DNA of 64,000 nucleotides from Fulvivirga sp. M361. Lineage in GTDB: Bacteria > Bacteroidota > Bacteroidia > Cytophagales > Cyclobacteriaceae. This document shows, one piece after another, positions 31,629 to 33,160 of the stretch. The position numbers and the translations under genes were made by a program. Below the pieces are notes generated by a model. It was given only the letters and a program-made list of their open reading frames with translations. It made no database searches and was not told the origin of the DNA. The first letter of the stretch is position 1, and the number at the start of each line of letters is the position of its first letter. Where the stretch lies: NCBI RefSeq assembly GCF_007097395.1, contig NZ_VKDC01000004.1:124001-188000 (forward strand). The letters run 5' to 3'.

Positions 31629-32546
31629 ATGGAAACAAGATTATTAAAACAGCTTTGTGAATCATTTGGCCCTTCCGGCAACGAGGTTATGGTAAAAGAT
31701 TACATCCTGGACTATATAAAAAGAGAATCTAATGCATGGGTTACCGTACCGGAAGTCTATCACGGAGATGAGTTTCAGGACAATATTATTTTAAAATTCG
31801 GCACACCTAAAACAGCTATTTTCGCACATATGGATAGCATAGGTTTTACGGTCAGGTATCAAAATCAACTGGTAGCCATTGGCGGCCCCGACACAAAAAG
31901 TGGCTACTTACTTACAGGGTCCGATGCCATGGGGCCTATAGAATGTGAATTAGATGTCAGCAAGGATCATCAACTATTTTACAAGTTCGGACGACCCATC
32001 GCCACCGGTACCAACCTCGTGTACAAATGTGACTTTAGAGAAACATCGGATACAATATCATCCTGTTGCCTGGATAATCGACTTGGAGTATACAATGCAC
32101 TGCGTGTAGCTGAAACACTGGAAAATGGTGTCATTGTATTCAGCACTTGGGAAGAACATGGTGGAGGTTCTGTCCCTCATTTGATACGTTTTCTCTATGA
32201 ACGATGGAGCCTCCGACAGGTATTGATATCTGACATCACCTGGGTAACCGACGGAGTACATCCCGGGCAAGGTGTGGCTATATCTATGCGTGACAGAAAC
32301 ATTCCGAGAAAATCTTTTATCGATAAAATCATTGCACATGCTGAAGCGTCAGGCGTAGATTATCAACTTGAAGTAGAAGGAAACGGGTCTAGTGACGGAC
32401 GCGAAATACAGCTGTCTCCCTATCCAATAGACTGGTGCTTCATAGGCGCGGCTGAAGAAAACGTACATACACCAAATGAAACCGTTAACAAACATGATAT
32501 AAAATGTATGATAACGCTATATCAATACCTGATGAAACACCTTTGA
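31629..32546 (+). CDS. M42-family aminopeptidase
   Basis: 305-residue dinuclear metallopeptidase. N-terminal LLKQLCESFGPSGNEVMVKD opens the family. Metal ligands fall in FAHMDSIGFTV (His), SSCCLDNRLGVYNAL (bridging Asp), STWEEHGGGSV (catalytic Glu-Glu) and LISDITWVTDGVHPGQG (Asp). The last ligand His is in AAEENVHTPNETV. M42 enzymes form large cytosolic complexes that trim short peptides. Followed by a hairpin terminator that overlaps the hpt promoter. Confidence 0.9.
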   Translation: METRLLKQLCESFGPSGNEVMVKDYILDYIKRESNAWVTVPEVYHGDEFQDNIILKFGTPKTAIFAHMDSIGFTVRYQNQLVAIGGPDTKSGYLLTGSDAMGPIECELDVSKDHQLFYKFGRPIATGTNLVYKCDFRETSDTISSCCLDNRLGVYNALRVAETLENGVIVFSTWEEHGGGSVPHLIRFLYERWSLRQVLISDITWVTDGVHPGQGVAISMRDRNIPRKSFIDKIIAHAEASGVDYQLEVEGNGSSDGREIQLSPYPIDWCFIGAAEENVHTPNETVNKHDIKCMITLYQYLMKHL

Positions 32547-32556
32547 ATCCTTCATT

Positions 32557-32584
32557 TTGCCTTTCAATATAATTTCTATATTTG
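32557..32584 (+). promoter_or_regulatory. hpt promoter
   Basis: TTG (32557-32559), a 17-base spacer and TATATTTG (32577-32584). The -7 box is exact and the spacer a little short. Initiation near 32590 falls inside the 5' arm of the terminator that follows. Confidence 0.6.
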
Positions 32585-32585
32585 C

Positions 32586-32620
32586 ATGCCTTTTGACAAT
32601 CGAAAGGCATTTTTATTTTA
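32586..32620 (+). terminator. Terminator of the M42 gene overlapping the hpt start of transcription
   Basis: The stem ATGCCTTT (32586-32593) / AAAGGCAT (32603-32610), with a 9-base loop, is followed by TTTTATTTT. It ends M42 transcripts. Transcripts from the hpt promoter begin within the first arm and so should not form the stem. Confidence 0.7.
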
Positions 32621-32626
32621 ACTAAC

Positions 32627-33160
32627 ATGGTCACAATCAAGGATAAAGATTTTGAAAAGTTCATTAGTCACGATGAAATCTCAGATAAGATCAAGCTCAT
32701 CAGTGACCGTATCAACGAGGATTATAAAACCAAAAAACCACTTTTCATTGCTATACTAAATGGCTCATTCATTTTTGCCGCTGATCTGCTAAAGGAAATA
32801 AATGTTGAATGTGAGATTTCTTTTGTAAAATTGGCCTCTTACGAAGAAATGGAAAGTACCGGTAACGTTAAGCAACTGATAGGGCTTAATGACAATATTT
32901 TCAATCGTGACGTAGTCATTATAGAAGATATTATAGATACGGGGAGGACGATCGTAAAAATTTTGGAAGAATTTAAGTCTCTGGGTGCAAATTCAATAGA
33001 AATTGCCACACTCCTGCGGAAGCCAAAATCAGAGGCAATCAGTGATCAGCTTAAGTATGTAGGTTTCCAATTACCTGAAGTTTTTGTTCTGGGTTATGGT
33101 TTGGATTATGACGGGCTTGGTCGTAATTTAAAGGACTTATATAAACTAAAAGAGGAATAA
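32627..33160 (+). CDS. hpt: Hypoxanthine phosphoribosyltransferase
   Basis: Salvages hypoxanthine and guanine to IMP and GMP. 177 residues. FIAILNGSFIFAADLLKEI contains the PPi loop; VVIIEDIIDTGRTIVKIL is the PRPP signature; EVFVLGYGLDYDGLGRNL carries the purine-binding Asp-Tyr region. It is first in an apparent hpt-adk-obgE unit (gaps 38 and 4 bases). In several Flavobacteria I recall a fused Hpt-Adk protein; here the two are separate neighbours. Confidence 0.96.
   Translation: MVTIKDKDFEKFISHDEISDKIKLISDRINEDYKTKKPLFIAILNGSFIFAADLLKEINVECEISFVKLASYEEMESTGNVKQLIGLNDNIFNRDVVIIEDIIDTGRTIVKILEEFKSLGANSIEIATLLRKPKSEAISDQLKYVGFQLPEVFVLGYGLDYDGLGRNLKDLYKLKEE

Follow-up and report, generated by a model that had tools for sequence, protein, structure and literature searches.

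In the window, i.e., the 64,000-nucleotide stretch of Fulvivirga sp. M361 DNA that was analysed, a gene for an M42-family peptidase (31629..32546, +; open reading frame with Pfam PF05343 Peptidase_M42, E 1.4e-21) is followed on the same strand by hpt, which encodes hypoxanthine phosphoribosyltransferase, an enzyme of purine salvage (32627..33160, +, with an ATG start codon; TIGR01203, 155.7 bits against a cut-off of 150). When bacterial genes lie close together, the leading one requires a stop signal and the following one a start signal; one short element in this gap seems to be both, with the M42 gene as the possible source of read-through. The sequence TATATTTG (32577..32584, +), the only exact TAnnTTTG listed in the gap, represents the -7 box of a Bacteroidota primary-sigma promoter (-33 TTTG / -7 TAnnTTTG) and is found before hpt in all 15 Fulvivirga genomes, own genome included. 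Instead of a full -33 TTTG there is a TTG (32557..32559, +), 17 nt ahead of the box, a weak and only possible -33 element; the motif itself is poorly defined in F. johnsoniae (PMC6847099). A single C (32585) lies between the box and an 11-bp stem (32586..32610, +; 5' arm 32586-32596, loop CAA 32597-32599, 3' arm 32600-32610), that is, the box ends two positions before the stem, exactly as the earlier, sequence-only reading of this DNA had it.

The terminator scan describes the site as 11 pairs, four of them G-C, with a loop of 3 and a T tail, TTTTATTTTA being directly 3' of the stem, and the T-rich tail (32610..32620, +) is at the same time the U-rich part of the hpt leader. Folding z-scores are -3.25 for the 72 nt after the M42 stop codon and -5.2 for the hairpin plus tail. 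With a G-C-containing stem, a T tract immediately after it and a distance of 39 nt from the M42 stop codon (32546), the site has the sequence of an intrinsic (Rho-independent) terminator, except that the first arm extends into the initiation region of the promoter of the following gene. An Rfam search of 32400-32800 returned six matches at E <= 5, all far below gathering scores.

Mapped starts in Flavobacterium lie 4-5 nt past the -7 box (PMC6847099), and the F. psychrophilum -7 box spans -12 to -5 (PMC9723704). Applied here, the Flavobacterium rule (4 or 5 nt between box and start) predicts that hpt transcription starts at 32589 or 32590 (32589..32590, +), which agrees with the initiation near 32590 assumed earlier, and that the leader is 37-38 nt long (32589..32626, +). 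Hence, the terminator-like stem and the next promoter share sequence, since the stem (32586-32610) spans the predicted start. The exact -7 box and a predicted start 4-5 nt further on are those of a typical primary-sigma promoter of the phylum, whereas the weak TTG and an initial transcribed sequence consisting of a terminator-like stem arm are not.

The stability of the hairpin depends strongly on where the RNA begins. The complete hairpin has a fold energy of -12.6 kcal/mol; with a start at 32588 the value is -11.5, at 32589 -6.8, at 32590 -4.4 and at 32591 -1.3 kcal/mol, and from 32593 no stem is left, so a shift of one or two start bases matters greatly. The sequence-only reading had held that initiation removes most of the first arm and leaves hpt RNA unable to form the hairpin. 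Neither claim holds in the folding, where starts at 32589/32590 remove just 3-4 of the 11 first-arm bases and leave 7-8 bp; given these energies, initiation at the most probable positions would weaken the stem without doing away with it, and a good part of the hairpin is probably retained in RNA made from the hpt promoter. A pure insulator, in which removal of the first arm leaves hpt RNA unable to fold and the hairpin without any role for hpt, would be favored by a predicted start near 32590 and by a stem of only -1.3 kcal/mol from 32591 and none from 32593, but the 7-8 bp that remain at 32589/32590 speak against it and we consider it unlikely.

Box and hairpin in the hpt leaders of the family

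To place this arrangement, the regions upstream of hpt were compared in 95 family genomes (49 genera, own genome included), a non-random sample in that 22 genomes were added from sister members of sampled genera, several of them for having the hairpin. Eighteen of the 95 were excluded for want of a usable exact box, which left 77 leaders, and a leader was counted when an exact TAnnTTTG, located 12 nt or more ahead of the start codon, was followed by a T-tailed hairpin beginning 1-9 nt past the box (the hairpin criteria differ slightly among this family count, an earlier scoring and the background upstream of open reading frames described below). A T-tailed hairpin at the box was present in 29 of the 77 leaders, whereas 0.66 would be expected after dinucleotide shuffling of these leaders; by genus, it was present in 10/37 vs. 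0.31 expected from such shuffles. These leaders come from 11 of the 15 Fulvivirga genomes and nine other genera. The Fulvivirga exceptions are L006, which has a stem without a good T tail, and L010, L015 and L016, which have the box without the hairpin. Two further cases were treated separately: the bulged T-tailed stem of L027, which the criterion misses, counts as a hairpin in just two of the analyses below, the M42 table and the stem-position comparison, and L127, with a T-tailed stem behind a degenerate box, was left out.

Chance adjacency of a terminator and a box-like octamer could appeal to the rarity of the arrangement elsewhere (box beside stem in only 3/30 tight codirectional terminators of 1.99 Mb, two of the three being hpt itself), but with 29 leaders observed against 0.66 expected, spread over 11/15 Fulvivirga genomes and nine other genera, coincidence is an explanation that we regard as close to negligible. 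Instead, the comparison of leaders indicates that the box-plus-hairpin unit before hpt is selected. The sequences of the stem are plainly different between genera while its position is kept. Within Fulvivirga, 94% of the cells in 12 aligned rows are paired vs. 28-66% when the partners are slid; two pairs are changed on both sides, and covariation within the genus is weak to modest because 119 of 500 shuffles equal this two-sided count (26/500 reach the covariation score).

The position of the stem relative to the predicted start was assessed in 31 hairpin leaders chosen by eye, including L006 (no good T tail); in L008, the first G-C pair given, at offset 1, lies past a bulge, and the value taken was that of the main stem, offset 4. 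Nine of the 11 genera have their outermost G-C pair 4-5 nt past the box, i.e., at or within one base of the nearer predicted start, and 7 nt after the box in the other two. Seven of the 11 genera have no G-C pair before offset 5, and the whole core would thus be retained with a 4-nt start (e.g., -8.5 kcal/mol for L052, -10.5 for L065 and -10.6 for L175); a 5-nt start would cost five of these seven genera one G-C pair. That hpt transcripts escape by losing the hairpin, as proposed earlier, therefore survives in a mild form only: the hairpin is weaker in hpt RNA, but the strong form is not general since seven of 11 genera keep the whole G-C core at the nearer start, and escape in these genera needs another reason because hpt RNA there would keep all G-C pairs. 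The same retention counts against a hairpin that serves as an insulator and nothing else.

The sequence at the predicted start is itself unusual. A GCC or CCC within offsets 2-8 is found in 46 of 66 non-Fulvivirga hpt leaders (four of them from other families) vs. 11 of 100 other promoters, and base composition may contribute to this excess because the control promoters are those of two genomes of one genus, Fulvivirga, and the hpt set represents many genera. Among Fulvivirga hpt leaders, 14/15 have GCC at offsets 4-6. The C-rich start is also common in hpt leaders without a T-tailed hairpin (27/41, or 26/39 after removal of two that do have one), and the first arm therefore seems more widespread than the hairpin. 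Judged from these leaders, the first-arm sequence may be kept for the start itself and the second arm only in some lineages.

A start-coupled attenuator is one way in which such a sequence could matter. Nucleotide pools would choose between G32588 and C32589/C32590 as the first nucleotide, the choice would set the strength of the hairpin, and a strong hairpin would terminate hpt prematurely. In the pyrC/pyrD systems of enteric bacteria, start selection is nucleotide-sensitive; at hpt, likewise, start choice over a G/C-rich start would set the strength of a leader hairpin, although hpt is a purine gene, its hairpin would act on termination or stability and start switching is hypothetical. One-base shifts alter the stem in the window by 2-5 kcal/mol, with similar changes in other leaders, and the 46/66 vs. 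11/100 excess of GCC/CCC, together with its frequency of 26/39 where the T-tailed hairpin is absent, would also fit. However, this model is drawn from sequence alone, the excess compares many genera with control promoters of just two Fulvivirga genomes, and a start at G32588 would be 3 nt past the box instead of the usual 4-5; we judge it very unlikely. Equally speculative is its physiological version, in which GTP/CTP levels pick the first nucleotide of hpt and thereby the strength of the hairpin, so that salvage would be attenuated when GTP is plentiful and read-through would be stopped as well. The conserved hpt start sequence does make the nucleotide-sensing model directly testable.

The M42 gene and the role of the hairpin

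If the hairpin served to stop read-through from the M42 gene, the two might be expected to occur together. By genus, the hairpin is found in 10/29 with M42 upstream vs. 1/8 without (p = 0.39) and is thus not significantly tied to the M42 gene across genera; the M42 labels of L174, L180 and L183 behind these counts were set by hand, and the stretch of L121 is too short to show the M42 gene. All 15 Fulvivirga genomes have M42 upstream of hpt, and insulation is evidently not required everywhere because three of the 15 have no hairpin (and one more no good T tail) despite this. Outside one genus, g70, every hairpin match has M42 upstream (in L174, by manual reading of the gap).

Genus g70 represents a natural experiment. 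No M42 homologue was found in its genomes G084, G147 and G180 by a search that was positive in 5/5 other genomes (the own genome and four others at 54-61% identity, which served as positive control), and a separate M42 search of g70, run without control genomes, was also empty. The upstream neighbour of hpt is instead a divergent gene for uracil phosphoribosyltransferase (Pfam, in G084 and G180), which starts 386 nt from hpt in G084 and is likewise divergent in G180. The g70 hpt leaders nonetheless retain TATATTTG together with stem and T tail. When G147 is compared with G180, 55 of the 60 positions from the box to the start codon are identical vs. 77 of 120 in the 120 nt upstream (gapped alignment). 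Of the five differences, one precedes the stem, another replaces an inner A-U pair by G-U and three are in the loop, leaving the outer six stem pairs and the tail unchanged.

M42 read-through cannot hold the element in g70, because the box, stem and tail persist there without M42 and with a divergent neighbour, although the loss of M42 in g70 may be recent and read-through from another source is possible. Blocking M42 read-through is, therefore, not the only use of the hairpin, and the earlier description as an insulator-plus-promoter unit holds for the layout (a T-tailed stem over the initiation region, 39 nt past the M42 stop codon in the window), which recurs at the hpt and acyl-CoA dehydrogenase genes, and fails for M42-blocking as the sole purpose. 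The persistence of the hairpin in g70 is also the third point against an element that does nothing for hpt.

Alternatively, the hairpin could be primarily a structure at the 5' end of hpt mRNA that is maintained for message stability or translation, with the T tail being simply the U-rich leader and termination of M42 transcripts a side effect. In 9/11 genera the outermost G-C pair is no more than one base from the nearer predicted start, and g70 retains the whole leader without a codirectional gene upstream; both are what this alternative would lead one to expect, and 5' hairpins in E. coli impede RppH and can stabilise mRNA (PMC3997798). On the other hand, 48 of the 77 family hpt leaders fail the hairpin criterion, and M42 is upstream at every match except those of g70, which makes a leader structure by itself an improbable account. 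Nevertheless, a leader function of the hpt hairpin is a real lead.

Hence, we favor, at a probability of about 50%, a model that combines these roles: one element of ~45 bp would be a read-through terminator, a promoter and a 5'-flush leader hairpin of hpt. Polymerase arriving from M42 would transcribe the full 11-bp stem with the T tract directly after it and undergo intrinsic termination. Polymerase starting from the TATATTTG promoter would make an RNA that begins at the foot of the stem (32589/32590) with a shortened, 5'-flush hairpin, which would be without its lowest pairs and, in the window, 2-3 nt back from the U tract. Such a hairpin would terminate poorly and most hpt transcripts would pass; at the 5' end of the mRNA it may in addition protect hpt mRNA. 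That is, because the predicted start is at the foot of the stem, the same sequence should be a strong terminator for a passing polymerase and a weaker one for a polymerase that starts there. The anatomy, its conservation and the drop in folding stability with the position of the start are observed, whereas termination of M42 transcripts, escape of hpt transcripts and 5' protection are what we infer. RNA polymerase that remains on DNA after termination can restart nearby (PMC6978380), and polymerase released behind M42 might likewise initiate again at the neighbouring hpt promoter; AlpA- or Q-like factors are known to carry polymerase past a terminator downstream of a promoter (PMC9371919).

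Terminator-promoter overlap is not new as a kind since it is known between Salmonella operons: overlaps at tufB-secE and S10-spc-alpha regulate expression, and the tufB-secE overlap is reported to affect expression, its interruption having lowered fitness (PMC7055797). At hpt, as in these cases, a terminator-like site and the promoter of the following gene on the same strand share sequence. The hpt element belongs to another phylum with another sigma consensus; its stem foot at the predicted start and its persistence without the upstream gene may be further differences. With ompA-type stabilising hairpins it shares a stem flush with the (predicted) 5' end, from which it differs by the terminator-like T tract after the stem and by a stability effect that is putative. 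What may be distinctive at hpt is the combination of a stem foot at the predicted start in most genera, persistence independent of M42 and a conserved start sequence. Overall, the parts are known and their arrangement is conserved; the original observation is confirmed and its interpretation partly supported. If the favored model is true, it would represent a compact form of gene insulation in a phylum with poorly known regulation, and a possible part for expression work in Bacteroidota.

Other genes and the genome-wide background

The clearest second example precedes a gene for acyl-CoA dehydrogenase (Pfam), where a box is flush with a T-tailed stem in 8/15 Fulvivirga genomes, including the own genome (element upstream of gene G000:C83:353345-354484, minus strand; L222). 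The stems differ between species, and in L229 the T run begins 4 nt past the stem. In the other seven leaders, the 110 nt examined (fewer in L227, at a contig end) contain no exact box, and a hairpin is visible by eye in each of them. With a 4-nt start, fold energies of -14.0 to -21.6 kcal/mol are reduced to -3.9 to -10.8 kcal/mol; the RNA would be without 3-5 first-arm bases, and half or more of the stability is lost (offset 5). On sequence grounds, then, this unit is a better fit to clipping of the first arm than hpt is, and it speaks for an insulator whose downstream RNA can no longer fold properly.

The sequence-only reading had also suggested a genome-wide search for boxes directly followed by a T-tailed stem. 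Such a search did yield the acyl-CoA dehydrogenase locus, and five cases were seen vs. a mean of 0.6 in Markov simulations of C83, in which simulated sequence has fewer terminators than the real one. As background, 100 intergenic regions with a box ahead of an open reading frame were taken from ~1.19 Mb of G000 and G004; under nearly the same criterion, five of the 100 have such a hairpin, and hpt accounts for two of the five. A set of 207 intergenic terminators (dG <= -7) came from 1.59 Mb of the own genome plus 0.40 Mb of G004 (1.99 Mb in all). In this set, the box is beside the stem in 3/30 tight codirectional gaps vs. 1/120 in other orientations (p = 0.025), and in none of 57 looser codirectional terminators, which were left out of that test. 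We give the gap-orientation test no weight because hpt, known beforehand, provides two of the three cases and 1/28 tight gaps remain without it. In a looser terminator set (dG <= -5, 1.19 Mb), the box is at -4 to 12 in 6/212.

Pattern searches give a similar picture. The pattern TATATTTGNNNGCC...GGCNTTTTT has one match per genome in 10/15 Fulvivirga genomes, always at hpt, and 0 in the control, while a looser pattern ending in seven T gives 38 matches vs. 31 for the reversed control.

A few additional arrangements were observed along the way. In the window, the upp leader (31575-31568, minus strand, plus ~35 nt downstream) has TATTTTTG with a strong hairpin (-15.0 kcal/mol) flush against it, with no clear T tail in the window and no such unit seen among the relatives listed. 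In G004:C1 (within 1-400000, reverse), a 14-bp T-tailed stem is flush with a TACCTTTG box ahead of a gene that we take to be glycine-dehydrogenase-like; its upstream neighbour is divergent, and leader regulation of the gene is possible. Finally, the mirror image of the hpt layout, with an exact box just past a terminator, occurs in other tight gene pairs (e.g., G004 214376 and 395019, and G000_C83 191202, minus strand), in one of which the box is partly formed by the T tail of the terminator.
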